From the NCBI RefSeq assembly GCF_026210795.1, contig NC_089437.1, forward strand, positions 1,860,001 through 1,924,000: a stretch of DNA of 64,000 nt. Direction: 5' to 3'. The notes under the pieces were generated by a model. The model was given only the letters and a program-made list of their open reading frames with translations. It ran no database searches and had not been told where the DNA came from. Of this stretch, positions 19,120 through 40,844 are shown in pieces. The number at the start of each line of letters is the position of its first letter. Within the stretch, counting starts at the first letter, position 1. The DNA is from Rhizophagus irregularis. Its lineage: Eukaryota > Glomeromycota > Glomeromycetes > Glomerales > Glomeraceae. Position numbers and translations under genes: made by a program.

Positions 19120-19399
19120 TATTAAAAAGGGTTTTGTTTTTTATCGCACCCGCGACATGTCGTATGGTCAGCGCCGCAGAATATTATTGGTGCAAATTTT
19201 GTGTCCTGATTTTGTGGCGCGGAAAATTTGCGAAATGTAACGCAAATTTATCCATCTTTTTTTATCCAATAACAGGTGATCGAAGAAAAAAAATTTTTTT
19301 TTTTTTTTTTTTTGATTTCGTACTGATCAGTTTCGTTCCGTCTTGACCTCAAAAACAAAAACGTAAATTTTCATTTTTGTTTTTTTTTTGTTTTGGTTT

Positions 19400-20215
19400 T
19401 TCTTTTGATTTAGGAACGTCAGCTTACGTTCCTTGCCTTCACAGGACGGCCTTCTTGAATGTAGACTTCGGGTTGAACGCGAAATTGTGATAGGAGCTTT
19501 CCTTTGCTTTTTTTTCCCTTTGATTTAGGAACGAATACTCATGTTCCTTTCTTTTTTTTTAGGGACGAACCTTGAATATTTTATCAACTTGGTTTGGACT
19601 TCAAAATCGAAAAAAAAGGTAAAGTTTTCAGTTTTGTTAAGAACTTTGATTTAGAAACGCTACTCACGTTCCTTTTTTCTTCTTTTCTAGAGACGAACCT
19701 TGGATATTATATCGATCTCAGATATTATATCGGCCTGGGCTTCAAAACAAGAAAGAAGTAAGAAGTAAGTTCTTGTTTTGTTTTTTTTTCTTTTTAATTT
19801 AGGAACGCTACTCACGTTCCTTTTTTTCTTCTTTTCTAGATACGGACCTTGGATATTATATCGGCCTGGACTTCAAACAAGAAAGAAGTAAGTTCTTGTT
19901 TGTTTTTTCTTCGTTTTAATTTAAGAACGCTACTCACGTTCCTTTTTTTCTTCTTTTTTTTAGTTTTTTTTAGGATGGACTTCTCAGAATGTAGACAATG
20001 GCTCGGACTTCGAAATTGTAAGTAGGAATATTTGATTTTTTTTTCCCTTGATTTACGAATGATATTCATGTTCTTTTTCTTTCTTCTTTATAGAAATGGA
20101 CCTCGGACATTGTAGATTATTCTTGGGTTTCAAATCGTAAGTGGGACAGTGTTTTTTTTTCAATTGAGGAATGCTTTAACGTTCTTTTTCTTCTTCTTTT
20201 ATAGGGATAGACCCT
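19400..20215 (+). repeat. Micro-exon/intron tandem array 1, left TIR copy
   Basis: Units of about 113-150 bp, read on the plus strand (inward from the left end). The inverted repeat AGGAACG...CGTTCCT encloses CTACTCA, so CTCAC can act as a branchpoint. It is followed by a pyrimidine tract, TTTCTAG, an exon-like segment of about 48 nt (core GACCTTGGATATTATATCGG), then GTAAGT. Hairpins lie near 19411, 19527, 19651, 19800, 19924, 20053 and 20166, the last two decayed. No open frame runs through the exon-like parts. Confidence 0.8.
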
Positions 20216-20551
20216 AGGTGTTAATTTCCTTCCTAAATTGAATGTGTGAATAATTATGATGTATATGTCTGCATTTCGAATTCTAAAATCTGGAATCATG
20301 TAAAAAATTAAAAATACACTTTTCATTTACGCTTTATATTGACGTATCTCATTATTGAAATCGTAAACTAACTTCTAAAGAATAGTTTAATAAAGGTCCT
20401 ATTGTAATGTATGTTACAAGTATGTAGATAAAATTACCAAAATTAAAAAGAATTTCTTTGTTGATTTCACTATCTTTATTTTGGTTTTATAATTATAATG
20501 TTTATTATAGATCATTGTTTCTTTAAACATTAATTAAAGTCAATATAATGA

Positions 20552-23059
20552 TTATTTCCTGCTACAATTTCGTTTATTATGACCCATACTACCACATTGA
20601 CTACATTTGTATTGTTTACTAATTACCGATGATGAATTTTTTTCATGACTTGCTTTAATTCTTTTTGTACCTTTAGGACATCCTTTAGATTTCGTTTGTT
20701 TATTTGGATTGTTGAGAATAAAAGAATGATTTTCATGATTTTCTTTGTTGTCATCAAATTCATCATCCAATTCATCATCCAATTTTTCACCATCCAATTC
20801 ATTATCATCATCCAATTCACTATCACCACCTACATTTTCATTTTGCTCTTCATCTTTTAAATAATCCTCTAAAATAGATATTATACGCATATCTTTTTTT
20901 TTTAGTGCTTTTATGGTAGCTTTATGTGTTAAACCAGTAATTTTACCATATAATTGTATATCAGTAAGACGTTCATGCAGAGTGATAGAATTTTGCGATA
21001 TTTGATGAATTACAGTTAAAAATGGAACATTGTGTTGTGGAATAATAGGTGGAGTATCAGATTCAAATTTACTAGCAACCAGAAATGGTTCTTTATTGGC
21101 ATCCTTATTTCTATAATACCATCTTGAAGGAATAAGTTTTAAGTGAAATTTGGCTGTAGGACTACAAAGCATTATTTGAAAATAATGTCTGCAAATGATT
21201 CCCTTATTAATAAGAGATAAACAAGAACAATAATGTGATCCATTTGTTAATAAAATAACAAAATGTTTCTCAACAAGTTTGTTTTCAACAGCTACAGTCC
21301 ACATAGACATAATTTGATTTTTATTAACATCAGAAATCATACAAGATGCAGTAATTTGACGAGCATCAGGTATATCTTCTAAATGTTGATTGGTAGGCAA
21401 TTGATACTAAAAAATACAATGTTAAGTTAAATGTAATTAAAAATGCATCTTACTATAATAAATGTACTATACCTCTTCAAATTCACTAATAACTTCTTGA
21501 TTGACTTGTAAAGCACTATAAAAAACACACTGCCTAATTTCATTTCTTTGAAGATCCAATATAGCAGGAGGCAAATATTCTTCAAGTTTCTTATCAATAG
21601 AAGTGAACATAAAGGATGGGATGGAAATCTGAGTAGATATACAAGGGATTGCAGCTTTCTATAGTATAAGCTGATGTTTTTTATCTTCAGATATTTGCCT
21701 TTTATCAATTACTTCAGCAAGTTCACACAAAGAAATATTTGAATTAAAAATATAATTTTTTATCCAAGCATTTATACTTTTGATGGGAGATGATGCATGA
21801 AGCCCTGCTGTAAATTTCCTACATGTCCAAGGGTGAGCCCATGCTTCTTTAGTATTATAAAGAGTATTAGTTAAATACTGCTTTGCTTCGGGATATTGAT
21901 TGATTAAAGTTTGCCATTTTGATTCAAAAATTGGTTTGTGCAATGTATTACGTGTTGCATAAAATTGTGTGGAAAATTCATAAAATCTTTTTCCAAGTAG
22001 TTTTTGAAGTTTTTTAATTAAATTTTGATTTATATGAAACGTACAATGCATTGGATATGTAGTATGAAATGTAGATCTGATTGCAGCATAAACAGCCGGA
22101 TCTGCATCTGTCATCATTACTTGTGGATGAATATTATTTGTTGCTAAATTAATTTGTTTAAATGCCCATTCATGTGATTCTTTTGTTTTATCAATTAATA
22201 AAACTTGAGCAACAAGTCTTATATTCCGATTTTCATCAAGAATCACAAATAAACTTAAAGCCATATCATACCTATTAGTTTTACAAGTTACATCCTGTAT
22301 TACAATATCAGAATACTGATACCAAAGCTCTATTTGTGATGGTGCCATCTAGAATAAATGGGTGAGAGTATTTTTATCATCAAATTTAATAGCTACTTTC
22401 CAAAGTGGATTATTCTGTGAAGATTCAAGCAATTTTGCATATAATTTAGCAGCATCATTGCTATCATTTCTACTAGTTTGAGGACGAAAATATTGGATGG
22501 CTTGATACAAGTCATTATTGTAAATTAATTGTCCTGAAAACTTTGCCTCAAGATATTGCCTTTGAGAAGTAGCTCCCATTTTACACTGAACAGTAAGAAA
22601 CTCAATTTCTTTCATAATCTCAGAAAGTATTTGCTTGTTATCTCCAAATTGAATAATATCAGGATTAAGATTATGTGAATGAGTATTATTAAATGTAGTA
22701 ATATAAACATGTTTAAAGGGATTATTAGAAAATGGTTCTAAAAGATTAATATGCCAAGTACAACCTATACGCTTTGTTTTTGTTTGTTTGCCATTAGATT
22801 TTGTATTGTAATCACCTTGATGTTCACATTGTATAGTGCGTTTACGTAAAGTTCTATCAGGGTTTCATTCAACACGATTATATATGATATTAAAGCCTTG
22901 TTGCTTCGCCCAACTCTCAATAATGTAGAAAGCTTGATCCCAGGAAGTAAATACTCTTCCTTTATACAAAAGTGTTTCGGTTGACTGGCTTGAATTGCTT
23001 TCATTTTGTGGTGAAGAATCTGTAGTGTCAAGAGAAGGTAATTCACTTTCGTGAGACAT
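20552..23059 (-). pseudogene. MULE transposase (FAR1-type, DDE, SWIM, CCHC knuckle), three premature stops
   Basis: One reading frame runs from ATG 23059 to the stop at 20552 with a 66-nt intron (21407-21472): 813 codons if stops are ignored. It is broken only by TGA at 22865-22867, TAG at 22349-22351 and TAG at 21659-21661. Order of domains: FAR1-like N-terminus (SWDQAFYIIESWAKQQGF ... GCTWHI ... HSHNL); MULE DDE core with D in VIQDVTCKTNRYD and D in MMTDADPAVYA; the third acidic position appears as Lys in SSPIKSINAWIK where relatives usually have Glu; SWIM finger CSCLSLINKGIICRH; acidic stretch; CCHC knuckle CSQCGSMGHNKRNC. Without these lesions it would cut and paste the surrounding element. 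The upstream TIR supplies its presumed leader. Confidence 0.9.
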
Positions 23060-23539
23060 AATATTTTATGTTTAAAGAAAAAAATTATTTACTTCGTGTT
23101 GCGCGATTAAATTATTAATAGTTATAACACAAAAATTTATTGGCAGTGATACAAAAATTTATTGGATTTGCGGTAATACAAAGAAAAATTTACATGTAGA
23201 TTGTCCTGCATTCTATTTAGAAATCTAGCAAAAGTGCAGACATTTTTACAAGTCACAATCAAAATCCGATATCATAAAAAGGTAACAAAAGAATGTTGGT
23301 AACATCCTAGATCAAAAATGCTAACGAAAACTCTACTTACAATTTGAAGTTCAAGGATGACATTTACCAACATCTTATGGCACCTCCTTCTTTTGAAGAA
23401 TGAAATAATATTGTCTCTTCTATACCTAATAACAAAGTTCAGGACAACAATAAATCCAATACGAAGTGCTTAAACATCTTAAAATATTCCAAATTGATAC
23501 AAATCTGCATTCAAGAAATCCAGTTTTAGAAAAAAAAGA

Positions 23540-24375
23540 AAAAAGTAAGCAGCGTCCCAAGTTAAAAGAAAACATCAAGATACGAATACCAAAACTACTT
23601 ACGATTTAAAAATGGACTCTACATATAACATCCAAGATCCCTCCCTATAATAAAAGAAAGAAACACGCTCTAAAAAAAGAAGAAAAAAAGAACGTGAGTA
23701 GCGTTCTTAAATTAAAACGAAGAAAAAACAAACAAGAACTTACTTCTTTCTTGTTTGAAGTCCAGGCCGATATAATATCCAAAGTCCGTATCTAGAAAAG
23801 AAGAAAAAAAGAACGTGAATAGCGTTCTTAAATTAAAATGAAGAAAAAACAACAAAGAACTTACTTCTTTTCTTGTTTAAAGTTCAGACCGATATAATAT
23901 CCAAGGTCGATATAATATCCAAGGTCTATCTCTAGAAAAGAAGAAAAAAAGGAACGTGAGTAGTGTTCCTAAATTAAAAAGAAAAAAAAACAAAACAAGA
24001 ACTTACTTCTTACTTCTTTCTTGTTTTGAAGCCCAGGCCGATATAATATCTGAGATCGATATAATATCCAAGGTCCGTTTCTAGAAAAGAAGAAAAAAGA
24101 AACGTGAGTAGCGTTCCTAAATCAAAGTTCTTAACAAAACCGAAAACTTTACCTTTTTTTTTCGATTTTGAAGTCCAAACCAAGTCGATAAAATATTCAA
24201 GGTTCATCCCTAAAAAAAAAGAAAGGAACATGAGTATTCGTTCCTAAATCAAAAGGAAAAAAAAAGCAAAGGAAACTCTTCCTACTCACAATTTTGAAGT
24301 CCAACCTGAAGTCTACATTCCAAGAAGTCCGTCCTAGAAAGAAGGAAGGAACGTAAGTGACGTTCCTAAATCAAA
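23540..24375 (-). repeat. Micro-exon/intron tandem array 1, right TIR copy (upstream of transposase)
   Basis: Inverted copy of the left array, reading on the minus strand toward the transposase start. Each unit shows GTAAGT-type donor, hairpin GAACG...CGTTC and TTTCTAG acceptor in the sense of the gene. Hairpins are at about 23690-23711, 23811-23831, 23952-23971, 24105-24120, 24226-24246 and 24345-24368. Further decayed units continue toward 23225. The placement makes it a candidate multi-intron 5' leader of the transposase mRNA. Confidence 0.8.
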
Positions 24376-24652
24376 AGAAAAACCAAAACAAAAAAAAAAC
24401 AAAAATGAAAATTTACGTTTTTGTTTTTGAGGTCAAGACAGAATGAAACTGATCAGTACGAAATCGAAAAAAAAAAAAATTTTTTTTCTTCGATCACCTG
24501 TTATTGAATAAAAAAGATGGATAAATTTGCGTTAGATTTCGCAAATTTTCCACGCCACAAAATCAGGACACAAAATTTGCATCAATAATATTCTGCGGCG
24601 CTGACCATGCGACATGTCGCGGGTACGATAAAAAACAAAACCCTATTAAAAA

Positions 24653-26019
24653 ATGTTAAAAATAAAGTTTTATTAAAAAAATTTGATAAAATGTATATAA
24701 ACATTTTGTTAAAAAAAAAAAATTTTTTTTTAAAGGAAAAATAAAATGTTAATAAAGTTTCATTATATAATTATTTTAAAAAAAAAGAAATGCCAAGTAT
24801 TTTGTTAAAAAAAAGAAATATTTCAGAAGTATATATATACTTTCAAAATGCCATTTTAAAGTTTAATCAGTTATAAACTTATAGCTGATCATCTTAATGA
24901 TTGAACAACTGCAAATGCTATATCTTTAAAGTTTAAATCTTTATTTTCTTCACTTTATTTCTAGAAATATAAGCTATGATAATTATTTTTAATTAAAAAA
25001 AAAACTTGACAGCTTAGTTGTTAAATTATAAGACATAATAATTATTAACATTATGTATTTAGTATATGGATGTTAATTATCATGTTAAAGAATTAACTAG
25101 TATTGATTAATATGTATACTGGTATTAATTAACACTTATAAAACTTATTGATACTTTATATTTTTTATAAGTATCAGTATTATATTGTATTCTAAGTAAT
25201 ATTAAATTAAACTTTCTGTATAAAATACATTTCCATTATAAGAAAATCATTTAACTCTTTAATTATATATAGAAAAATTCATTCTAATGCTAATATTACT
25301 AAAGTATTTATTTAAGATAATAACTTAATTCAATCTTAGTATTCTACTTTATTCTTAAATCCTTTAGAAAATTTAACCAAATTGTTTTTTTTAGATTAAC
25401 TGTTATGCATTTATTAAAAAAAAAATCAGGCTATATAAAAATACAAAGAGAACAACCTAGACTAAAGTAACAAAATAAACTACTCATCATCCTAATTAAA
25501 ACCCTACAAATGTATAATCAAATAGTTTAAAGCTATATAGATGTAATTTTATTTAGAAACAAACTTTATCTTAACCTTTTGCAGATCCTGTAGTCTTAAC
25601 TTAACAAACTACAAACTAATACTACTATAGACTGTATTACCATTATAAAAATATCAAAAACAAAAAAAACAAGAAAAGGTTAAACCCCCTTATAAATTAT
25701 GATCCTCATAAGATTCTCCCACCCATCAGCAAAATGGTATAATCAAATCTATTTAAATAGCCTAAAAAGATCTTAGATCTTATCTATTAACGAATATAAT
25801 TGTGACTTATAATTGTACAAATACAAAATGCAAACATGTCATATTTCAGAGTTGACATGTTTTGGAACAGAAACTCATAGTCATAAGAAAATTTACAGAA
25901 CTCTTCTAATATCTAAAACAGTAATACAGCAACATTTTTTATCTAATTTCAAGTAGATACACAGGATCCCGCCTACTACTAATAAGATATGTTACCAGTA
26001 AAAATTTCACTTTCATATG
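24653..26019. other. AT-rich gene-free stretch right of the MULE
   Basis: No coding sequence or intact element recognised. TnAn tract near 24710-24735. Confidence 0.5.
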
Positions 26020-26175
26020 AAACCTTACCTTAGGATTTGCTTAAATTCTATTGGTTAATTGACTAAAAAGAAAAAAAATCATAACAATGTAACATAAAAT
26101 TTCCTTTTATAGTAGGATCTTTAAAGAGTTTTATATGTAAACCTTACCTTAGACTACAAGGTAATCTATTTTAAT
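26020..26175. mobile_element. MITE family A, degraded copy
   Basis: Retains the core (TTCTATTGGTTAATTGACTA, CATAAAATTTCCTTTTATAG) but both TIRs are eroded. Confidence 0.7.
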
Positions 26176-27646
26176 AATAGGCAAGGTCTTAGATATACTA
26201 GATCTAACCAATTTTTTTATTTAAGTAATCTAATATTTTTAATTTTAATAATTACTCTGCTGATTAACTTAAATTAATAAAAATTAAAAACTAAAATCCA
26301 TTAATCCCATCAGCCTCTTAAAATGACCGATCTACATAAATTTAAAAAAGTTATCTTCAGTCCAGCAGATGATCAACATTTCAGTACTTCTAGCTTTTCA
26401 AAAAAAAACAAAAGTAAAAACGCTAAAATTCTAAGAAAAAAGAAAAAACTAAAAAAACAAAAAGGAAAGTCATAACCTCAAAAATTTCTAGAGAAAAAAT
26501 TGAATAAAGAAGATAATAAATATCAAGCCTCTGTCTATTACTTTAATATTACAAATAACAATTGATAATAAAAAAAATACCTGGTTCATAAATAACTACT
26601 TTAACTTCAACTTGCATTTCAAGGAAAAACCTTTGAAATACTTCTAAAAATAAAGAAACTAACAGAAAGACTTTATACTAGTGCAGAGTTCAAAGCTCAG
26701 CTATCCAGTATATAACTATTACAACTTTCAGAAATCTAGTAGAAAAAAAGCTTTGCAGAAGTAAAATTATCTTTAGTGAAAACTGCTTTATAATTTTGTA
26801 ATTCTATTAAAACTTTGAGTTAAAGATTCATTTAAATCTTGAAAGAATGACTGAGAAATTTAAAAACATATTAAAAGCACTTTATAACCGCTTAAATGAA
26901 AAAAACAAGTTTTTTCTTTAGCAATTTCTACTAGAAAAATGGTCAAGTGATTAGTAGGTAAAAAATATAGTTAATTCTAATTATATTTGACCAAATTGTT
27001 TTGTAAATTTATATATTTTTTTATGATACTATTAATTCCTTTAACATATTAAGTTCTACAGTAAAATATTATAAGTAATTTTATAAGTTATGTAGATTTA
27101 CTAAAATAAAATATAAAATAAATCTAATATAAATCTTTACTTACTATATAAATAAAAACTTTTTCTTATAATTCTTTGATTTTACTTATTTAAATTCTTA
27201 TTAAATACTAATTACTAGTATAAGGGAATGTTTTATTTAACTAATTCAATTTAATATTAAATGTAATCTTATTTAAACAATTAGTACATATAAAATAAAA
27301 TTAAAATAAAAAAGAATTGTAATGTTCTTCTAAAGATCTTTATATATAATGGTTTGCATTTAAATAGTATCTAAACAAATTACTAAAACAATTCAAATTT
27401 ATATAACTAAAATTTTAAAATAAATCAATATTACATCTAAAAAGATGGATTATATATCAAAATATTTGTTTTATTGAGATAAATTTAACAAGTCAAAGAT
27501 CATTAAAATTTAATTACTGGATTCTAAAATAGCAAAATTTAAAGTTAAAACTTTATATATTTAAAACAAAAATTAAATATAAGATTTATATAAATTTAAA
27601 TCTAAGTTTTTTTAATAATCTTTGAAATTCTATCTAGGTCTATATA
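26176..27646. other. AT-rich gene-free stretch
   Basis: No ORF above background and no recognisable TIR. Probably decayed repeat sequence. Confidence 0.4.
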
Positions 27647-27870
27647 GGACCCCACTTACTTATAAGATAGGTCACCCCTAGGCCTAAGATAAAAATCATA
27701 TATAAAATTCTTTGCAGATCCTACTATAAAAGGAAATTTTATGTTACATTATTATGATTTTTTTCCTTTTTAGCTAATTAACCAATAGAATTTAAGAAAA
27801 AAGTAAGGTAAAAACTATTAGTAAAGGGCTAATTTTCTATGATGATCTTTATTATAAGTAAGCAAGGTCC
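27647..27870. mobile_element. MITE family A, full copy (inverted orientation)
   Basis: TIRs: GGACCCCACTTACTTATAA on the left, reverse complement of GGACCTTGCTTACTTATAA on the right, 224 bp. The core CATAAAATTTCCTTTTATAG is in reverse orientation relative to the copies at 29828 and 33329. Confidence 0.88.
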
Positions 27871-28507
27871 GTAGAGTGGCTTCGTTACTGACTGTTTCCT
27901 TGTTTTTATATATTTGTTTTTATGTTTTCGTTTTTATACAAGGGGTTTTTTTTTGCTATTTTTTTTTCTATTTTCTTTTTGATTTGAAGGTACATTTGTA
28001 TTAGGTTTATTATTGCCATTTTCAAAATTACTAACAAATTCTGATTTGCGAGGTTTAATATATGATTTTTCGTATAACAAAAGTGAATCACATTTTTACA
28101 CGAATTTTTAATATTTTCATGTTAAATTTTTTTTGTGAATCACCAAATTCAAGATAAAATATGTATCAATGTAAAATTTCAGTATCTTTTAGAATTATTT
28201 GTATATTATTACATAATTATGCTACTTTCTATACCTTAGAATAAAGCTACTAATTATGTAATATTTTTATAGATAATCTTAGGGTACGTATATCTTACAT
28301 TTCAATATATATGCTTGATATCTTTAATACTATCCACTGATAAAGTAAAAAATAATTCAGTTCTAAATCTTTAATTTTTCAATTTAGTATAAAGATCTTT
28401 ATTTCTTGAAAACTATAATAATATTCCTATCTGAAATGCAATTCAGCATTACAAATAGAATAATTTTTACAAAACTAATAATTCAGATAATAATGCATTT
28501 CCATTAC
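27871..28507. other. Gene-free stretch between two elements
   Basis: AT-rich. One short minus-strand ORF (27906-28091) looks like chance. Nothing else seen. Confidence 0.4.
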
Positions 28508-28510
28508 TTA

Positions 28511-29036
28511 CACAGGTCGAAAAGTGAAAAATCAGGCACCAATCAGTCACCAATCAGGTAGCTGATTGGTGACTGATTGGTGACTGATTGGCATTTTCGC
28601 CAAATCTTGCGTCGCAATCAGGCAGTTTGCTAACTTTTGATCCAGTGATCAGAAAAAGATGAAATATAGCTCATTGGAATCGTCTCAACATAACGAATCT
28701 AATGGTAGTAAAATCGCATTTCTAGGATTAATACTTGATGAGAAATTAAGTAAAATATAAAAATAAAAATGTATCATTTATATTTTATTTAATTTTTTAT
28801 TAACTATCAATCCTAGAGATGTGATTTTACTACCATTAGATTTGTCTTGTTGAGACGATTCCAATGAGCTATATTTCATTCTTTTCTGATCACTGGATCA
28901 AAAGTTAGTAAATGCCTGATTGGTGACGATATTTGGCGAAAATGCCAATCAGTCACCAATCAGTCACCAATCAGGTACCTGATTGGTGACCGATTGGTGA
29001 CTGATTGATGCCTGATTTTTCACTTTTCGACCTGTG
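28511..29036. mobile_element. Fold-back element B, copy 1 (ends CACAGGTCG, 3-bp TSD TTA)
   Basis: A 526-bp near-complete palindrome. Both ends read CACAGGTCGAAAAGTGAAAA inward, and the arms extend to a short AT-rich centre near 28765. Flanked by TTA (28508-28510 and 29037-29039). The arms contain CCAATCAGTCACCAATCAG-type short repeats (7-10-bp units). No ORF. A second copy lies at 36591-37127. Three-bp TSD plus CAC-starting ends would fit a CACTA/CMC-type or Harbinger-type mover; the superfamily is inference. Confidence 0.93.
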
Positions 29037-29039
29037 TTA

Positions 29040-29827
29040 AAAAACTTAAAAATTGTTAAAAATAGAATTTGAAAATATTTATTATTACTAAAAAACTAAA
29101 ATAAAAAGATTATTTCACATTTTTTGAATAGACTTTAGATAGCAAAATTTATATTAACAAATAATATATTAGAAATAATTGGACAAGTAAATATTGCATG
29201 ACTCTTTGTTTTTTATAGATATAATATATTAATAATTAAAATCATACATAAATATATATTTTCATAAATATTATTTTCAAATAGTATTTCGCACAAATTG
29301 AATTTTTTTTTAATATTTAATTTGATTTACTAGACTTGACTTAAAGTCTCAAACTCAATTTGAATTTCAAAAAAATATCTTATAATCTAGTAAGAGGATA
29401 GGAATTATATAATATTATGTGATATTCAGTTTAACTTCTTCTTTTCAGATTTAATAATCAATCAAATTGTATTATATAATTTTATTAAATATAAAATAAG
29501 ATTTTAGTTACCTCTTTCCCCTCTTTAATAATTATGTAATATCTGTAAACTCTTTAATTTAATTTTAATAATTTTTTTAATCAATAACTTTCATTACCCT
29601 AATTAAAATAAAAAATTGTTAAAATCAGACTACTAGATTAAAAGTTATTTGAAAAAATATTTTTACTCTCAGAATTAATTAAAATTACATATATTATAAA
29701 TCAATTTATACAGAACATTACTTTTAAATAAAACATCAGCATCATACATATAAATTTTAAAACAATCTTAATGAGATAAATAATGGAATATCACCATTTG
29801 TTATTATTAGTAATACTGATATAGATA
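29040..29827. other. AT-rich gene-free stretch
   Basis: No coding sequence. A relic resembling the repeat at 37320-37400 (GTTACCTCTTTCCCCTC ... TATGTAATATCTGT) lies near 29508-29548. Confidence 0.4.
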
Positions 29828-30049
29828 GGATCCCACTTACTTATAATAAAGGTCACCATAGAAAATTGGCCCTTTACTAATAATTTTTACCTTACTTTTT
29901 TCTTAAATTCTATTGGTTAATTAGCTAAAAAGGAAAAAATAATAACAATGTAACATAAAATTTCCTTTTATAGTAAGATCTGCAAAGAATTTTATATATG
30001 ATTTTTACCTTAGGCTTAGAAGTGACCTATCTTATAAGTAAGTGGCATC
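29828..30049. mobile_element. MITE family A, full copy
   Basis: TIRs GGATCCCACTTACTTATAA on the left and the reverse complement of GATGCCACTTACTTATAA on the right, same core as other copies. About 222 bp. No convincing target duplication. Confidence 0.88.
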
Positions 30050-30283
30050 ATACTACAACTACACTCCTAAAATTAAGACTATCAGAACATTCTTTTGAAC
30101 TTATCAAGATGCTTCTAGCTTTTTAAGCATTAACCTTATTTCTGTTAATATAGTTAGCTTATCAATACCGCCTAAGGTCTTAATCTATATTCTTGATTTC
30201 TTTAGTTACCTTTTGCTTCTTACTCAACTGATTGTTAGAATTAGTTGTTCGTAAAACTCTGAATTTAACCTAACTGATCAGAT

Positions 30284-31941
30284 TAGAGGTGTGCTCTGGT
30301 GAAATCCGTTCAATCCGTCATCTGATCCGATCAAAAAATGGATCACCCGGATTAAGAATGAACGGATTGCGGATAATCTGGATGGATCTGTTGGATAACA
30401 TCAGATTGATCGGATATTACACGGATGACTGGATTGACCGGATTGATCAGATAATCTGGTCAAATTCATAACTTTTTTTTTTTTTTTTAACATAAATGTT
30501 TTTTTTTAAAAAAAAAAACACCTTTTTTTCTTTAGGACAGACTTGGACTTGGACTTCGGAACGACTTGGACTGCTTGAATTTCAAAAAGTAAGTGTAAAT
30601 TTCTTTTTCTTTTATCTTGGGAACGTCACTAAATGTTCCTTTACTTCATTTCTTTAGGGGATGCCTGCCTGGAACTTAATTTCGGCTTGGGCTATAAAGG
30701 TAAGTTGGGGGAGGGTAATTTTGATTTTTTGTTTGTCTTTGGGAACGTCATTAACGTTCCTTTTGCTTTTTTTCTTTAGGAAACGCCCTCCCGGATTTGA
30801 ATTTCATAAAGGTAAGTTGGGAAGGGTATTTTCGGGGTTTTTTTTATCTTTGGGAATGTCATTAACGTTCCTTTTGCTTTTTTTCTTTAGGAGACGCCCT
30901 CCCAGATTTGGATTTCATAAAGGTAAGTTGGGAAGGTTATTTTTGAGTTTTTTTTGTCTTTGGGAACGTAATTAACGTTCTTTTTGCTTCTTTTCTTTAG
31001 GTGACGCCCTCCCAGATTTGGATTTCATAAAGGTAAGTTGGGGAAATTATTTTTGAGTTTTTTTTATCTTTAAGAACGTAATTAACGTTCCTTTTGCTTC
31101 TTTTCTTTAGGTGATGCCCTTCCTAGACCTGGATTTTGGCTTGGGCTATTAAAGTAAGTTGGGAGGGTGTTTTATCTTTTTTTTTTGTCTTTAGAAACGT
31201 CATTAACGTTCCTTTTGCTTCTTTTCTTTAGGAGACGTCCTCCCGGATTTGGATTTCATAAAGGTAAGTTGGTGAGGTTATTTTTGAGTTTTTTTTGTTT
31301 TTGGGAACATAATTAACGTTCCTTTTGCTTCTTTTCTTTAGGTGATGCCCTTCCTGGACCTGGATTTCGGCTTGGGCTATTAAAGTAAGTTGGGGAAGGG
31401 TTTTTTATCTTTTTTTTTTGTCTTTAGGAATGTAACTAACGTTCCTTTTGCTTCTTTCTTTAGAAGGACGCCTCTTGGACCTAGATTTCGGCATGGGTTA
31501 TAAAGGTAAGTTGGGGGAAAAGTATTTTTGTTTTTTTGTTTTTAGGAACGTAATTAACGTTCCTTTTGCTTCTTTTTTTTAGGGAGACACCTTCTTGGAC
31601 CTCTAAATCTTAAACTTTTTATAAATATTGTGTCAACTAATTTGTTAAAAATCATTTGTAATAACGTAAAAATAAATACTATGTTTATTATTATAAAATT
31701 CTAATTGTTAATTAATATTAATAAAAAGTATTAAGTAGAAAAAACTGAATTCGGATTCATTGGATTCACTGGATTGACCAGATTATTCAGATATCCCGGT
31801 CAAATTGGTGAGCAAGTATTGACTGGATATCCGATAATCCATTCGGTCAATCCGATGAATTATTCGGATCAATCTGAATCTAGTCAAATTTCAGATGGAT
31901 GACTGGATATCCGGATTGACCGGATTCAGAGCATACCTCTA
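30284..31941. mobile_element. Non-autonomous element C with 8-bp TSD GATCAGAT (hAT-like ends)
   Basis: Ends read inward TAGAGGTGTGCTCTG and TAGAGGTATGCTCTG. Exact 8-bp flanking repeats GATCAGAT are at 30276-30283 and 31942-31949. Length 1658 bp. Subterminal regions (30300-30470 and 31750-31925) are dense in GGATTGACCGGAT/ATCCGGAT motifs in both orientations, the kind of cluster transposases bind. The interior is micro-exon/intron array 2. No transposase, so non-autonomous. 8-bp TSD and TAGAG ends fit hAT; superfamily is inference. Confidence 0.9.
30530..31600 (+). repeat. Micro-exon/intron tandem array 2
   Basis: Nine successive intron-like segments of about 69-82 nt, each GTAAGT(TGGG)...TTTCTTTAG, alternate with 'exons' of 32 nt (for example 30780-30811) or 42-43 nt (for example 30658-30699). 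Each intron has GAACGTAATTAACGTTC or a close variant 25-30 nt before its 3' end; TTAAC is a plausible branchpoint. Exon cores (GACCTGGATTTCGGCTTGGG) are related to those of array 1. Exon lengths are not multiples of three and no frame is conserved, so a protein-coding role is unlikely. Confidence 0.85.
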
Positions 31942-31949
31942 GATCAGAT

Positions 31950-33328
31950 GACCTGATAGGTTAACCTGAAAAATTTGGATCAGGTATAGTGGCTGTCACC
32001 TATAAACCACACTAATATTAAGTGACTTCAAATTTTTATAAATTGTAAATTGAATAGTAAAAAAAAGAAACTAAACCGATAAAATGATAGAGCAACATGT
32101 ACTGAACATTTCTATCAGATTATTTTATAGAATTTATTAAGAATTTTAATTAATATTATGGGTTAAAGTTAGATAATTTTAATAAGTAGCAATAATAAAA
32201 ATAATAAAAATATAAAATTTTGGACTAGTTTTCATGTAATTTTTATGGATTTTACAAAAATTTTATGGAAATCCACAAGAATTCCATGTAATATGGCAAA
32301 AAAAATTAATATTTTGACAAAGTACTTTAAAACATAAGTTACACAATATAAATAAATAAAGGATAAATCTAATTGTAACAGCCTGTTACGCATCTTATTT
32401 GTAACAACCCCAATTTTATCCAATTAAAATTTAAGATTAGGCATAATGTAAACAAAAACAAAAGATCAGTTAGTAAGACAAAAGAATTTTTTAAAAAATT
32501 TCAAGAAACTGCTTATAACTTAAAATTTTGTCTATGAAACTGTCTTAAGTACATTAAGTAAAAGTTTTCCAAATTAAATTTTGCATATAAAAATTTTATT
32601 TGTGAAACACATATTAAATTTATTATTAAAAAAAAATAAAAAAAGGATATTACAAATAAGATATGTAACAGGCTATTACAAATACATTTTTTCATAAATA
32701 AATTTTAAAATTTTGGACTATTGTTATTTATAGATGACAGTTACTATAGCAAATTTAATAACCTGATCTCAGGTCAGGTCAGTTACAGTCAGGTACCCAA
32801 CCTGACCTGTTAACCTGATATATTTTGTATCAAAAAAAAAAACATTTTAGCATTTTTTATAGCCAAAATCTGAATCTAACATTTTTTTATTAAAAATAAT
32901 AATAAAACACATCTTCTTTTAATAAAATAATTTTTTTTTAATTAAAAATATCAAACCTAACATTTTTCATTAAATTAAACAAAAACGTCAGATCTGATGT
33001 TATTCATTAAAAGATATATAAAAAAACTTTTTTTTTAGTTAAAAATGTTAAATCTGACATTTTTCATTAAACTAAATAAAAAAAAAGTTTTTTTAATGAA
33101 AAAATGTAAAATCTGACGTTTTTCATTAAAAGAAATATAAAAAACATTTTTTTTTAGTTAAAAATATCTCATTTCTAATATAAGATTTTTATTTTTTGAA
33201 ATCTAACAATATCTAAACGATTATATTAAAAAAGAAGAATTTAGTCAAAGTGAAATAGCATTACTAATACTTCAAAAAATTGATTAATACTGGAAAGTAG
33301 TGGATTTATCTATCTTAGTGTTTAGCTA
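31950..33328. repeat. Remains of an older element with AACCTGA subterminal repeats, interrupted by element C
   Basis: AACCTGA/CAGGT motifs cluster at 31950-31990 and again, partly inverted, at 32757-32822 (CAGGTCAGGTC...GTCAGGTACC). Left of element C there is a trace (TTTAACCTAACTGATCAG near 30265). Element C therefore seems to have inserted into this older element. A roughly 80-bp tandem repeat with AAATCTGACATTTTTCATTA occupies about 32870-33170. No gene. Confidence 0.55.
32374..32680. mobile_element. MITE D, 307 bp, TIR TGTAACAGCCTGTTAC
   Basis: The left end TGTAACAGCCTGTTACGCAT and the reverse complement of the right end TGTAATAGCCTGTTACATAT match over about 30 bp. Flanked by AAT at 32371-32373 and 32681-32683. 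No ORF. It lies within the older repeat block. Confidence 0.75.
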
Positions 33329-33551
33329 GAATCCCGCTTACTTATAATAAAGGTCACTGTAGAAAATTAGCCTTTTACTAATAGTTTTTACTTTACTTTT
33401 TTTTTAAATTCTATTGGTCAATTATCTAAAAAAGAAAAAAATCATAATAATGTAACATAAAATTTCCTTTTATAGTAGAATCTGTAAAGAATTTTATATA
33501 TGATTTTTACCTTAGGCCTGGGGTGACTTATCTTATAAGTAAGCGGAGTCC
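33329..33551. mobile_element. MITE family A, full copy
   Basis: TIRs GAATCCCGCTTACTTATAA and the reverse complement of GGACTCCGCTTACTTATAA, same core as the other copies, same orientation as the copy at 29828. It directly abuts the transposase remnant that follows. Confidence 0.88.
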
Positions 33552-33559
33552 TGTTTAAT

Positions 33560-34941
33560 TACAGTTAAAGATAGCGCTGCAAATAGGCAATTGCAGAATA
33601 ATTGTAATTTGTGGTATTGCAGAACATTGCGAATTTTGAAGTTTAAATATCTGCTGAAGCGCAAAAAAATAGCGAACATCAAATATAAAGTTCGTGGGCT
33701 TGCAGAAACTTATCTTATTGGAAATCTGAACTTAAAATTAGATATTTCAAATTCTATTTCTTATTTAACGGAGCAGGGATATCATATTAAAAAGTATTGC
33801 ATCTCTTAATGGTCTACCAGAGGTATTGTATTTGTGCATCCGGAACAATTAAAGAAGCTTGAGCATCATGAATGGTTGACACTTATAGATTCAACACATA
33901 AAACAAATCGGTATGATTGGCATCTATTTACTCTTTACGTCTGTAATACCTATAAATGTTAGAACATAAATGCCTATTTTTTTGTAAATAATAAAGATGC
34001 AGATACAGTTGCAGAAACTTTAATAATAATCTGCAATAAGTATTGTTGTTATTCTTCCTGTTACATACTTTCAGATCATAGTAATATCAAAGCTAAGAGC
34101 ATTAAAAAGACATTTCCTGGCATGACCGCTGGTGAACAAGAGTGCCAAGTTCTCCTTTGCATTGTCCATATTATGAGAATGTGGATGCAAAAAATTCATG
34201 AAAAAAAACTTGAGACATTATGATCGCGGTGATGCATAAAAGAACAAAGATTGGATGCGAAAGTCTTATTCAAGATGCTATTAATTTTTGTCCCGTTCCT
34301 TCTATACAAAGTTATATTAAAAGGAACTATATGAAAAATACTGAGAAATAAGGCTTATGGGGGAACCGCAACATTCTATGCTTTTACGAAGTTTTACAAT
34401 CATTTTAACGAATTTGCTAAAATCTTTTCATAGTGAATTAAAGAAACAACATTTTTATCACATGAATTGATTTGTACATGATGATTTTTATTTGGCTATT
34501 TTGCCCGTATGCCCAACTCAAAACTCTTATATTTTAGGTGCTGCTCATAAAGTTGTCAATGTTGATTGCAAAAAAAGATCTGAAGCCAAAAGTGCATCTT
34601 TTGATTTTTGTATCAAGAAAATATCTGCGTATGGTGTTGATATTGATATTCTTGAAGAAATCCAAAAGTTCCCATTCCTGTTTCAACAATTAATCATTAG
34701 AGAAGCCTGTGCTGTGATGAATAGACTTAAAAAAAGAAAAAGTACGACAGGTCTTACTTCTCTTGATTATTTCTGCTTGTTTCACTATCGATATTTATTG
34801 CCCTGCAAGCATATTTTTCACGAATACATGTACAGCAATAAATTGTTAACTACCGATGTATGGCAAATATTTTGTGAAATTTTTGAAGAAAGTGGGTTTG
34901 AAGTGTATGAAAGTCAAAAATCATTTATAGAATATGTTTAG
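33560..34941 (+). pseudogene. Degraded MULE transposase of a second lineage
   Basis: Fragments in changing frames give recognisable MULE pieces. Around 33830-33960 the segment LEHHEWLTLIDSTHKTNRYD contains the first catalytic Asp in its usual D-x-T-x-K-T-N setting; later a segment reads ILSDHSNIKAKSIKKTFPG (second Asp region), then VLLCIVHIMRMW. The longest open part is 34492-34941 (149 codons) and contains a SWIM-like CLFHYRYLLPCKHIFHEY near its end. Several stops and frameshifts separate the parts, so it is long dead. It differs from the transposase at 20552-23059. Confidence 0.8.
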
Positions 34942-35530
34942 ACAGAGCAACAGAAAAATGCTAAAAATTGAAGAATTACTATGGAAAAATTAACCAAAAG
35001 AATGTGTGATAGGTATTGGCGTGTTGAAAAGATGGGTGATGTTAATCTTTTATTTCTATATTAGAAGCCTCTGTCGGTGAATCTGATTATTTTGCAATTT
35101 GATAATAATTCAAGTGGAAAAACTTAGAAATTAGAATTACTTATTAGTATTTTGATACTAATAAATGTACAAGGTTGTATTGGGTTCTGATTATTGTGCG
35201 GGCTTGGTTTCTTAAATTATTACAAATTTTTTTTTATGTAGATAAAACTATGAATTTTTTTTACGAATTTTTATTAGAAATTTTTACGAATTTTTTATAA
35301 GAAAAATTACATTTTAAATTCAAATAAAACAATAAAATCAATAAATACTAGGATGGGCCTTTTTTATTTTAATTAATTTTTTTAAAAATTTTTAATTTTT
35401 TTATTAATAATTTATTGATATATTGATATTTTTAAGAAATTTTACTTTGCTGGAATACATTTTTTTAGCCAATTATCATTTTGTATTCTAACAAAAAATC
35501 ATGTGATCCTTCCGGTTAATCGCCACTTCA
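34942..35530. other. Gene-free stretch
   Basis: AT-rich. May include the decayed 3' part of the preceding element. Nothing else recognised. Confidence 0.4.
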
Positions 35531-36543
35531 CCAGTAACACCACTAAAGCTGCCACCCGAAATTATTTCCTAATTCTGAAATAATTTCAGCCAGAATTTTG
35601 TTTCCGAAACTAATTCCAAAATCCCGAAATTCTTCTGAAATCCCGAAATCTTTCCAAAACTCCTAAAATTGTCCGAAAACTTCTGATTGGCCTATTATAC
35701 AATCACATGACTTTATAAATTTGCTAAAATTTTATCTGTATTCTAATTCCATAATTCTGGCTCCGTAGCGATCTTTCTGACACGTGTAGTTTCATTTTAA
35801 GCCTATGTTCACTTTGTGTAATATCGGTGCATAAAGACGCATAATTTCCTTATATGGGGGCCTGTTAAAGCAGGGTGATTTAAAATTATTATGATTTGAT
35901 AAATTTTTTATAAACTAAAATTAAAGTGAACTTGAAAATCATTAAATAAGTGTATTTTGGCCTGCTCCACAAGTTTACTTAGGGAGAAAAAGTGGAAAAA
36001 GAACAATGTTTTTGACTTTACATATGAGCAAACGAATTTTGCTGATCATACCCAAAAAAGGATGGATCAATTTAACGAAATTGAAAAAGTTGAATAAATC
36101 GAAAACGGTGTTCTAAATCTCATTTTGTGCTCTAAGTAAACTTGCAGAATAGGTCAAAATGCACTTAATATATATTTATTTGGAAGGTTTTATATATAAT
36201 AAAGAGTTTTATTTAAAAAAAGAAAAATTTCAAAAGTCACGTGATTCTACTTGCTTTAACGGTCCCTTATATGGTATATACATTACACAAAGCGAACATA
36301 GGCTTAAATCGAAGCTATACATGCCAGGAAGATCGCTACGGAGCCAGAATTATGGTATTAGAATACAGTTATAATTTTGGTAAAAATTTTAATTTTGGTC
36401 ACGTGATATTATAACAGCCAATTAGAATTTCAGAATAGTTTCGGCATTTCAGAATTAAGTATTTTTCCTAAATTAATTTTACCATTTCAGTTTCGGCAAA
36501 TGGTAAAATTCCCTAATTTCAGGCGGCAGCTTTAAACACCACC
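35531..36543. mobile_element. Fold-back element E, about 1 kb
   Basis: Imperfect arms of about 330 bp. The left end has AACACCACTAAAGCTGCC, the right end the reverse complement of GGTGTTTAAAGCTGCC. Further in, CTGGCTCCGTAGCGATCTT pairs with AAGATCGCTACGGAGCCAG (about 35758-35777 and 36330-36348), as do GCCTATGTTC/GAACATAGGC. The centre is near 36040. An outer copy of the end motif (GTGGTGTTAC, 37250-37259) suggests a composite or nested structure with the element at 36591. No ORF of note. Confidence 0.75.
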
Positions 36544-36590
36544 AAATTTTTCACCCCACATGACCTCATAATATTCATTACTGGTATTAT

Positions 36591-37127
36591 CACAGGTCGA
36601 AAAGTGAAAAATCAGGCATCAATCAGTCACCAATCGGTCACCAATCAGATACCTGATTGGTGACCGATTGGTGATTGATTGGCATTTTCGCCAAATACTG
36701 TCACCAATCAGGCAGTTTGCTAACTTTTGATCCAGTGATCAGAAAAGAATGAAATATAGCTCATTGGAATCGTCTCAACAAGACGAATCTAATGGTGGTA
36801 AAATCGCATCTCTAGGATTAATAGTTAATAAAAAATTAAATAAAATATAAATAATACATTTTTATTTTTATATTTTACTTAATTTCTCATCAAGTATTAA
36901 TTCTGGAAATGAGATTTTACTACCATTAGATTCGTCATGTTGAGACGATTTCAATGAGCTATATTTCATCCTTTTCTGATTACTGGATCAAAAATTAGCA
37001 AACTGCCTGATTGGTGACGGTATTTGGCGAAAATGCCAATCAGGCACCAATTGGTTACTAATCAGATACCAATCAGCTACCTGATTGGTGACCGATTGGT
37101 GCCTGATTTTTCACTTTTCGACCTGTG
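36591..37127. mobile_element. Fold-back element B, copy 2 (3-bp TSD TAT)
   Basis: Same ends (CACAGGTCG) and same palindromic body as 28511-29036, 537 bp, flanked by TAT at 36588-36590 and 37128-37130. The arms contain the same CCAATCAG/ACCAATC clusters. It apparently inserted next to or into element E. Confidence 0.93.
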
Positions 37128-37319
37128 TATGCCCTACCACATTTTCACTGTTTATATTTATCTGAGGGACTTAGTTTTTTTTGTTATTTTTTTCACAACC
37201 TCTTAAATGTCACCGGTCATGTGGGAGTAAAATTTTAATTATAAAATTGGTGGTGTTACTACGGTAAATGGTTAATCACAATCATGTCATGTGATTTGCC
37301 TCCGCTTTAGACGACCTTT

Positions 37320-37400
37320 TTATATAGTATATATGTAACCTAAGATTTTCAATTACCTCCTTCCTTTTAGAATATTAGGTAATATTTGTCACTACCCTTA
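37320..37400. repeat. Partial copy of MITE F
   Basis: The segment TATATAGTATATATGTAACC ... ATATTAGGTAATATTTGTCA ... CCCTTA matches 53593-53676 over about 80 bp, but the left TIR is absent. Confidence 0.75.
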
Positions 37401-37857
37401 TCACTCAATGCATTTTTATTAAAAATACATCTTAGTTTATTACAGATAATACAATTAATAAGTTTACGTATATTACTTTTATTAATTATACCAGGACTCT
37501 GGACATCTCATAACTGACTTTTTGCCAAAAAAAACCTAATTTGCTTTTTTTTTATTTTCCATTTTTTGTGATTATTTTGGTATTCAGTAATCCGATTCAT
37601 GCAAAATTTTTTTATTTTGTAGAGCTTGATGAGAGCTACAAAACAAAAAAAGGTTTGTACAAATTAGATTACTGGATGCTGAGATAATCGCAAAAAACTG
37701 ATTTTTTTTTGTGAAATTTAGCTCAATCTGCGAAAAAGTTGCTACTGAGTTGTATATGTAATGTTTGGGTCCTATTATACCACTAGAAATATTTTCTTTG
37801 GTAAATTCAAATGCACTGGAAAGAAATTCTTTTAAATATTATACAGATCAGTGATGT
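37401..37857. other. Gene-free stretch
   Basis: AT-rich with a local inverted repeat (GATTACTG...CAGTAATC type, about 37580-37690). No gene. Confidence 0.4.
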
Positions 37858-40844
37858 TATCATCAGTAAATTTTTTAGAACATGGATCCTTAAAGATTTC
37901 TTAAATTGTTTTGGAATCCTTAAGGATCCAGTAATTTACAGAATCCTTAAAAATCCTTAGATAAATTATAAAGATCTTTAAGGATTCTATGAATTGCTGG
38001 ATTTCTAAGAATTCCTAAAAAAAAATCTTTAAGGAATCCAAATTTAAATCAATAACTATTAATATAAAATTCAGTTATATATCACATGTATCATGTGATA
38101 TATACATTATCCAGCTGATCATTTTTTTTTTAAAACTTTTGTCTCCCTCTTATCTCTAATAATATTCCTCTTTCCTCTCTCACCTTTCCCTTTCCCGCCC
38201 TTTCTCTTCATCCCATTATTTCCCTTCTCTACAAAATCTATAACAAAATATGATTTTTTTTTAGTTGGCAGTTAGATTCCGCCATTTCGGTAAGATTTTT
38301 ATTTATTTTTAAATATTTAATTAACTCTTCTAACAATTTCATTTTCTTTGTTTTTTTTTAGACAGTTCTTTTAGATTTCTTTGAAGGTGATATTCTGATA
38401 AGTTTTAAACTTTTTTTTCTTCTTTTAACGAACAGTTTCTAATAATTCGTTTCTTTTTTTTTTTAGGGATTTTTTTACAGTAAGTTGTTTTTTTTATAAT
38501 TTTTTTTTACTTCTTTAACAAAACATTAACTAATGTTTTATTTTCATTTTCTATTTTTTTAGGCGGTCGGGCCTTTTCTTTTTAAGTTCTTTCAGGTTTC
38601 TTTAGTATGCAGCATTTCAGTAAAGTTTACATTGGTTTTAATTTTTTTATTTTATTTTAACAATATGTTGCCTTAACTAATATTTCGTTTTATTCTTTTT
38701 TTTTAAACACCTTTTTTTCAGATGCTTGAACATAAATTTCGGCAAGTAATAGGACTTTTGGCAAGTAAACAAAAACAAAATTTCATTTTTTTTTATATTA
38801 ACGAACATTACTAACTGTTCGTTTTCCTTTTTTTTAGGTGGTTTTAAGCCTTTTTGGATGTGAAATACTGGCAAGTAAGAAAAAAAAACTTTTTTTCTTT
38901 TGTTTATATTAACGAATATTACTAACTATTCGTTTTTCTTTTTTTAGGTAGTTTTGAGCCTTTTTGGACGCAAAATACTGGCAAGTAAAAAAAAAAAACT
39001 TATTTTTTTTCTTTTTGTTTATATTAACGAACATTACTAACTGTTTGTTTTCTTTTTTTAGGTGGTTTTGAGCCTTTCAAGACGCAGAATATTGGTACGT
39101 AAGAAAAAAAACCTTTTTTTCTCTTTTTATTTATTTTAACGAACATTACTAACTGTTCGTTTCTTTTTTTAGGTGGTTTTGAGCTTTTCCAGAAGTGGAA
39201 TACCAGTGCATAAAAAAAAATTTCTTTTTTTATTTTAACGAATATTACTAATTGTTTGTTTCTTCTTCTTTTTATAGTTTGTTTTAAGTCTCTAAGCTTA
39301 GGATATTAGTAAGTAAAAAAAGTTTTTTTTCCTGTTTATTTTAACAAATATTACTAACTGTCTGCTATATATATTTTCTTTTTTTAGATGATTTTTCAAG
39401 TCTCTCTTAACATAGGACTGATATAAGACTGATTCACAAATCACATTTATCGATTAGATATTATTAATGATTATAACATTTTTCAATCTTTTGAATGAGA
39501 CATCCATTCTACAAGATTCTAAAGAAGAAATAATGCATCACTTTTTACATTAAATACAGTCTCAAGAAGGGTTGAAAAATTATCAAGATCAATTTTGAAA
39601 ATATTATAAGATAGAATATGTGGAATGGAGGTTAGATTACGATAAATAAAATTTTTTTTTTAATTTTTTTTATATTAATGAACATTATTAACTATTCATT
39701 TTGTTTTCTTTTTTTTTAGATAGATTTTCAAATCTCTTTTAACATAAGACCAGTAAGTAAAAAAAACAATTTTTTCTCTTTTTATGTTAATGAACATTAC
39801 TAACTGTTCATTTTTTTCTTTTTTTAGGCAGTTTATTCAAGTCTTTCTGGATTTTAGATATCGGTAATTAAGAAAAAGATTTTTTTTTTCTTTCGTTTAT
39901 TTTAACGAACACTACTAACTGTTTGTTTTATTCTTTTTTTTAGGCTTTTTTAAGGTTTTTTTTGACGTGGGATATTAATAAAGTAAAAGAAAAAATTATT
40001 TAAATTTTTTTATTTTAATGAACATTATTAACTGTTCGTTTTTTATTTCTTTTTTAGATGGGTTTTTATATCTCTGGACATTATAGAGTAAATGTTGTGT
40101 TTATAACGAAAGTAGCAGAATATTCTCACATTATTTTTGCGACATAAAAGGTGAACATTAAACACGTGTTTGGAATTATGTTGCGATCTGCCAATCTGCC
40201 CCACGTTTCAATTCTGCAATTTGATCTTTAATAGGATTGTGATGGTCATGAATACTGGCAGGTAAAAATAAAATTATTTTAATTTTTTTTAATTTAACGA
40301 ACACTTCTAACTGTTCGTTATTTTTTTCTTCTTTCTTTAAATGTTTTTTTCAGACTGATAGTGTTTAAATTACAGTATCTCAATTATGATTTGTAAAGAT
40401 TCCTATTAATTATTTCCACAAAAATACCAAGCTAAGGTTTTTTAACAAGAAAAGATAGAAGAAACTATTGAATATTTTATAAGTTATTACAATTTAAAGA
40501 TGATGGGTGTATTTTTTTATTTGAAATTTTTTTGTAATCAAAATAGATTTTTTTTAATTATTTTATATTTTATTTAATTCAGAAAAATGTGTAATTAAAT
40601 AAATAAAAATAAATACATTAAATAAATAAATAAATAAATAATAAACCTATTAATAAATAAATAAATATAACAATAAATATCCTTAAAGATTCCTTATTGT
40701 AAATTTAGGATCCTTAAGGATTCTATAGAATTCTTTTAATAGGAAATCCTCACTGATGGAAAAGGTTTTTTAGAGATCCTCATTAATTACGAGATTTTTT
40801 GGAATCCCTAGAGATCCACACCTTAAAAAATTTACTGATGATTA
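37858..40844. mobile_element. TIR element G, about 3 kb, carrying intron-like array 3
   Basis: Ends read inward TATCATCAGTAAATTTTTTA and TAATCATCAGTAAATTTTTT. Both subterminal regions (37880-38040 and 40678-40820) are rich in ATCCTTAAGGATTC-type palindromic motifs. The interior is array 3. No transposase. I could not find a convincing target duplication, so the exact ends are provisional. Confidence 0.72.
38262..40345 (+). repeat. Micro-exon/intron tandem array 3
   Basis: About a dozen units with a typical period of 95-115 bp. Each has a GTAAG donor, a T-rich segment, the inverted repeat AACGAAC...GTTCGTT enclosing ATTACTAACT (with the canonical branchpoint TACTAAC), a pyrimidine tract and TTTTTTAG, then an exon-like segment (for example GTGGTTTTGAGCC ... 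ATACTGGCAA). The best units lie at about 38790-39300. Units on both sides are decayed, and about 39400-39660 and 40090-40290 hold non-repeat insertions. Confidence 0.8.

Follow-up and report, generated by a model that had tools for sequence, protein, structure and literature searches.

The 64,000-nucleotide stretch of the Rhizophagus irregularis genome analysed here, called the window below (positions 1,860,001 to 1,924,000 of contig NC_089437.1, i.e. C9:1860001-1924000), belongs to an assembly of 146.7 Mb in 32 contigs and contains three arrays of predicted introns and short exons, each located inside a different element bounded by terminal inverted repeats (TIRs). All three arrays follow one grammar: a 5' splice site (donor), inverted arms of the AACG/CGTT type around a yUnAy branchpoint, a T-rich tract and a TAG 3' splice site (acceptor). 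This common design, proposed by a first-pass annotation of the window, is borne out, since the dyads are present in all three arrays and are nearly absent from randomized DNA. Indeed, scanning the window strictly for donor, dyad and acceptor in combination returned 9 rows on the + strand (8 distinct dyads) and 5 on the - strand (4 distinct), and in 10 Markov copies of the window the count was 0 for nine copies and 1 for the other. Rfam, searched at gathering thresholds, gave 0 matches in window positions 18900-41000.

Array 1 is carried by a MULE with long TIRs (19129..24643), delimited by inverted repeats (I2, I6, I8, I9, I12) and flanked by a 9-bp target-site duplication (TSD), TATTAAAAA, at 19120-19128 and 24644-24652. 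Its modules, recognized from sequence and dyads, lie in both TIRs and point inward, on the + strand in the left TIR (19363..20204) and on the - strand in the right TIR (23337..24426), where they include a tandem repeat (23675-24126) and are directed towards the transposase gene. The latter, located downstream of the right-hand array on the same minus strand (20552..23060), is broken into several open reading frames (ORFs) by stops or frame changes, introns also being possible; one of these ORFs (21659-22348) matches PF10551 (E 8.5e-16). Both the transposase domain and the combination of long TIRs and a 9-bp TSD thus identify this element as a MULE. Five of the six copies read show the 9-bp TSD; in the other, L010, the right end could not be matched. 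Three sister MULEs (L011-L013, of which L011 was read) carry TIR arrays of another sequence, and a short MULE (L014) carries a different kind of module.

Array 2 (30534..31582 from first to last predicted acceptor, + strand) consists of introns of 77-80 nt and exons mostly of 32, 42 or 43 nt, and largely coincides with a tandem repeat (30606-31602) whose unit includes an exon. Its predicted introns open with a GTAAGTTG-type donor and end in TTTAG, and between the two lie a dyad that covers the branchpoint, for example GGAACGT-AATTA-ACGTTCC, and then a T-rich tract; the array starts with an acceptor ahead of which no clear donor is seen. The number of introns picked per copy ranges from 8 to 23 (window copy and L001). 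The host (30284..31941, + strand) is a non-autonomous hAT-like element, with the short TIR TAGAGGTRTGCTCTG and the 8-bp TSD GATCAGAT (30276-30283 and 31942-31949) expected of a hAT. The TSD is exact in the window copy; of two further copies with both ends read, L006 has it with 1 mismatch and L005 lacks it. Genome-wide, 18 occurrences of the TIR word TAGAGGTRTGCTCTG were counted, and elements that have it carry two different kinds of module. No hAT transposase was found in the array-2 copies read. The long copies L007-L009 provided no autonomous partner, and the elements retrieved through the TIR word alone (L015-L018) carry the same or another kind of module and no recognized transposase. L009 does contain a multi-ORF gene without Pfam match, located in a segment (L009:2449-7666) that has its own inverted AGGACCCCGAAGA ends and is apparently nested in the array-2 element.

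Array 3 (38290..40353, + strand), whose modules carry the dyad AACGAACA-ttactaac-TGTTCGTT, includes two tandem repeats (38781-39188 and 39667-39945). Its host (37861..40840, + strand; TIR words CATCAGTAAATTTTTTA at 37861 and 40840) is a candidate fourth element type, with no clear TSD: a 2-bp match is found in three of the four copies with both ends seen, a weak indication where the DNA is AT-rich. Elsewhere in the genome, a Tc1/mariner-type transposase gene (HTH_Tnp_Tc3_2, DDE_3; L028:81-1290) lies directly ahead of an array-3-like array. The window also harbours a palindromic element (36593-37131) with CACAGGTCGAAAAGTG/CACTTTTCGACCTGTG ends and 11-bp repeats, which has an inverted relative at 28509-29040.

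Examination of the genome indicates that the design holds far more widely than these three hosts, as it was also recognized in other MULEs, in another hAT and in a CACTA-like element. This other hAT (L031) encodes a DUF659 transposase, has its own TIR and is flanked by the 8-bp TSD AATTACAA. Its array lies at the end opposite the transposase gene and converges on it, and no such array is found upstream of the gene; a run of palindromic ACGTAATTACGT-like units (L031:688-930) occupies the array-side end of the element. Of the six loci of the CACTA-like family, two had their ends read, L047 and L048; both show CACAGGTCGAA ends and a 3-bp TSD (GTA and TCT), the combination of CAC.. TIR and 3-bp TSD of CACTA/EnSpm elements, no transposase being seen in them. 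Just past the right end of the array element of L048 lies an ORF (L048:6157-6558) with a Cas12f1-like TNB domain (E 1.3e-20), a domain also found in TnpB/Fanzor proteins. Nested elements are common among the loci read. The hosts therefore cannot be reduced to one family with a variable TSD: as the first-pass annotation held for arrays 1 and 2, the 9-bp and 8-bp duplications go with unrelated termini, and classification by TIR and TSD separates MULE (9 bp), hAT-like (8 bp) and CACTA-like (3 bp) hosts and a fourth type, the array 3 host, with no clear TSD.

The modules are also abundant. The genome contains 197 occurrences of the dyad/branchpoint word GAAACGTACTAACGTTTC and 408 of GAACGTNATTAACGTTC, and 0 of either reversed word; module queries gave at least 342 matches for array 2 and at least 83 for array 3. 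Twenty places where a dyad looked isolated were picked by eye among the matches listed. A YAG lies 9-19 nt downstream of the dyad in 18 of them and an AAG in the other 2, and at 12 of the 20 the retrieved 1.1 kb contains at least two hairpin introns. None of these 20 dyads joins two open frames of at least 100 nt, so that no copy in a host gene was found in this small, hand-picked sample. Among the particular arrangements encountered, three dyad/branchpoint words lie just 44 bp apart at C3:3811378-3811482, tighter than in usual modules, and two dyad words separated by 5.1 kb, one on each strand (C2:1768844 and C2:1773916), form the pattern expected of another TIR-borne array pair.

The association between branchpoint and dyad was quantified on introns selected by splice grammar alone, the hairpin (at least 6 bp, at least 2 G-C pairs and at most 1 G-U, around the branchpoint motif) being scored afterwards. 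It is present in 202 of 311 predicted array introns, versus 11 of 1555 shuffled versions. Control introns outside arrays, i.e. predictions joining two open frames, some of which lie in transposon genes, have it in 3 of 56 cases, or 2 of 55 once L007, an overlooked array-2 intron, is removed (Fisher p 4e-19). The frequency is high in array 2 (85/105), hAT L031 (12/14), L034/L035 (14/17), the array 1 MULE and its near copy (22/32), the CACTA-like family (29/43), the second hAT module (17/28) and L014 (3/5), and lower in the array 3 group (17/49) and the sister MULEs (3/18). The branchpoint dyad is thus common and not universal. As the centre of the dyad is not at the same place in all families, a covariance model (R1) came out with no base pairs; the rows of this model were pre-picked for hairpins (41 of 71 candidates), and it carries no statistic.

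The 5' splice site is also paired, in ways that depend on the family. In the CACTA-like loci L041-L046, it lies inside a second stem, for example GTAAGTTTCGCAAC...GTTGCGAAACTTA. Among 52 donors chosen by the donor alone, 51 were anchored and gave 22 distinct arm pairs, in which stem pairs 11-14 are 87.5% Watson-Crick (shuffles: mean 54.5%, maximum 73.9%, 0/5000 as good), with G-U at 13 versus A.C at 8. These arms represent about five stem types, hence few independent events, and palindrome correction could likewise match them. A donor hairpin inside the intron is found in 34 of 42 CACTA-like introns (shuffles 11/420), in 6 of 29 of the array 3 group (33/290), in 7 of 66 control introns (40/660) and in 0 of seven other sets, which rules it out as a universal feature. 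Instead, the end of the exon pairs with the start of the intron across the donor in 9 of 17 array 1 introns (shuffles 2/170) and in 7 of 10 of the GTAAGTTCG type (3/100), and in none of five other sets. Of the seven stretches folded in all, six gave z values of -6.6 (CACTA-like), -2.6 (array 1), -2.6 (second hAT module), -2.5 (array 3), -2.4 (hAT L031) and -1.3 (L014, partial intron).

Divergence between copies spares the splice signals. Across 162 matches to the array-2 module, recovered with a sequence profile, GT, AG and the branch A diverge by 3.5% on average, versus 12.2% for other columns (11.2% without CpG-like ones), exons reaching 15.3% and the rest of the intron 11.0%. In array 3, whose columns were read by eye, the donor GT is held at 92 and 98% and the acceptor AG at 97 and 94%. 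Likewise, in 90 matches from 6 loci of the CACTA-like family, the first eight intron columns are held at 91-100%, the branchpoint T and A at 100% and the acceptor A and G at 87 and 89%, most inner stem columns being held at only 48-71%. The exons are apparently non-coding: in the L001 array, the single one checked, exon lengths are of all three phases and the 22 joined exons give a longest frame of 71 amino acids, versus a mean of 90 in shuffles.

Relationships between hosts were evaluated by aligning one representative intron per family with the others and with 16 control introns, which sets two ceilings: a maximum of 35 among 128 representative-versus-control scores and of 47 among 120 control-versus-control scores. 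Of 11 intron pairs between MULE, hAT and CACTA-like hosts, 10 exceed 35 and 5 exceed 47, the top score (63) being that of MULE L014 with hAT L031. Arrays 1 and 2 score 41, a value surpassed by 1 of the 120 control-versus-control scores. By contrast, the introns of array 3 score 31 and 25 with those of arrays 1 and 2, within the control range (4 and 16 of 128 as high). Furthermore, the L014 module matches C13:4145868-4146018 at 72% (E 1.5e-8), a place that the hAT module array also matches. The first-pass annotation had considered the exon cores of arrays 1 and 2 recognizably related; this kinship was not confirmed, 55 of 1000 shuffles being as good with one representative of each. Nevertheless, 5 of 28 exon pairs are equalled by 13 or fewer of 1000 shuffles (the best, again L014 and L031, by 6), so that exon similarity across hosts is weak, yet perhaps not nil.

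Since introns are alike across superfamilies and exons only weakly so, the intron, above all its 3' half, can be read as the part passed between MULE, hAT and CACTA-like hosts. Of the two origins initially envisaged, transfer between transposon families or convergence, transfer is therefore favoured for most families, their introns mostly scoring higher with one another than with control introns; for array 3, convergence and old divergence are both compatible with the scores obtained.

The arrays are most likely units that yield spliced leaders or non-coding RNAs, whose introns would have spread between transposons. The broader interpretation, for which the chances appear about even, is that they consist of spliceosomal introns strung together with short non-coding exons in DNA transposons of several superfamilies, used to counter silencing or to support expression. 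Transcription of each array would set out from that end of the element at which the array begins, as suggested by the inward orientation of the MULE TIR arrays and of the hAT L031 array. Splicing of the transcript would then yield a short non-coding RNA or else, for the window MULE, a leader of the transposase gene, and the hairpins may tune or order the use of the splice signals. Such dense splicing would mark the RNA of the element as gene-like, hindering co-transcriptional silencing or aiding expression. Shielding from silencing, which the arrays perhaps provide, is favoured because introns are reported to be a barrier to nuclear RNA interference (RNAi) in Caenorhabditis elegans (Akay 2017, PMC5554785) and intron-bearing transgenes to be protected in plants (PMC5554785). 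The related proposal of a mobile splicing module, in which introns with the branchpoint, and in some families the 5' splice site too, placed in a hairpin would have spread among unrelated DNA transposons and multiplied there with short exons, in arrays reaching more than 20 units and probably thousands of copies per genome, as a generic expression or anti-silencing cassette, is made tentatively.

Several observations weigh against a splicing-based use. The arrays fill non-autonomous elements, whose movement needs no expression, and a role as transposase leader, which suits the window MULE, fails as a general rule in hAT L031, where the array converges on the gene. The hairpin is rare in the introns of the sister MULEs (3 of 18), and the one array-2 intron folded does no better than its shuffles (z -0.69). 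The stems themselves do not demonstrate selection on RNA pairing: G-U and A.C are balanced in the branchpoint stems of array 3 (20 versus 18) and, with the outermost pair disregarded, in those of array 2 (23 versus 25), and the array 3 stem shows modest covariation, equalled by 14 of 1000 shuffles. A G-U excess, which is slight even in the CACTA-like donor hairpin, thus provides no proof of an RNA hairpin, and RNA hairpin and DNA palindrome therefore both stand as readings.

The same balance between G-U and A.C is compatible with passive amplification, in which a few intron/exon units entered transposons, multiplied by tandem duplication and moved by nesting and by recombination between elements, palindrome correction during replication keeping the arms matched without any function. 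The strong variation in module number between copies (8 to 23), the frequency of nested elements and the existence of only about five donor-stem types also fit this scenario. It is nonetheless unlikely, as it explains neither the lower divergence of the splice signals nor the existence of three ways of pairing the 5' splice site and of several unrelated branchpoint arm sequences. The strong donors and acceptors found throughout the arrays, and the opening of array 2 with an acceptor that has no clear donor ahead, could alternatively reflect a stealth or exon-trap strategy, in which splice sites remove the element from host transcripts, or join it into them, so that insertions in genes are tolerated. 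However, the arrays would serve in one orientation only, long exon chains would remain in the message and no junction of two open frames of at least 100 nt was seen at any of the 20 isolated copies, which makes this strategy quite improbable.

Transposases of hAT elements and MULEs bind subterminal repeats. The dyads could accordingly act at the DNA level, as a series of binding or cruciform sites recognized by a transposase or a host factor, the splice-like context being secondary; their arms without G-U excess would suit such a device. It is still more doubtful, since the same donor/branchpoint/acceptor grammar surrounds the dyads in hosts with different transposases and the intron arrays of MULEs L011-L013 largely lack the dyad. 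Lastly, capture of a host gene with repeated exons, for example one encoding an SP7-like effector, a group that has tandem protein repeats in R. irregularis, is very improbable, as SP7-like genes are described as having one conserved intron before the first repeat and not one per repeat (PMC11333574), exons diverge more than introns, and the L001 exons are of all three phases and give a spliced frame no more open than shuffles. The L001 array thereby also differs from a Pack-MULE or captured coding gene, whose exons keep their frames.

Fungi reportedly harbour introner-like elements (van der Burgt, 2012). These elements and the sister (stw)introns of Hypoxylaceae resemble the arrays in comprising many related spliceosomal introns with internal inverted repeats or stable predicted structures, but they are described as single, seamlessly inserted in exons of unrelated genes and devoid of any carried exon (PMC8469720). 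The units found here include an exon and are arranged in tandem inside DNA transposons, although across hosts conservation is higher in the intron than in the exon, and none of the 20 isolated dyads joins two long open frames, as a single insertion in a coding exon would. The effect proposed here is the same as that of the intronic barriers to nuclear RNAi, which were shown in C. elegans with ordinary introns (PMC5554785). As for the hosts, they match ordinary MULE, hAT and CACTA-like transposons by TSD and TIR, and the window MULE and hAT L031 also do so by transposase domain; unlike ordinary end repeats of these elements, theirs are intron/exon modules whose introns are related across superfamilies. 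Because the tests fit neither introner-like elements nor captured genes, the arrays would represent a categorically new kind, provided that they are spliced. A literature survey (intron/microexon arrays in transposons, Rhizophagus transposons, introners, SP7) found no title describing such arrays, which, being limited to open-licence papers, is weak evidence of novelty; in the main text of a curation of R. irregularis transposons, "intron", "splic-" and "tandem" occur zero times (PMC11075540).

Splicing of the arrays, if it occurs, would mean that a splicing-based accessory is common to transposons of different superfamilies, and would link intron multiplication, transposon survival and small-RNA silencing in a transposon-rich fungus. 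The arrays also provide hundreds of variants of natural introns whose splice signals are predicted to be paired, and hence a direct test of intron shielding against silencing. Furthermore, as about two thirds of R. irregularis transposons are reported to be unclassified (PMC11075540), the arrays may help to classify part of them.

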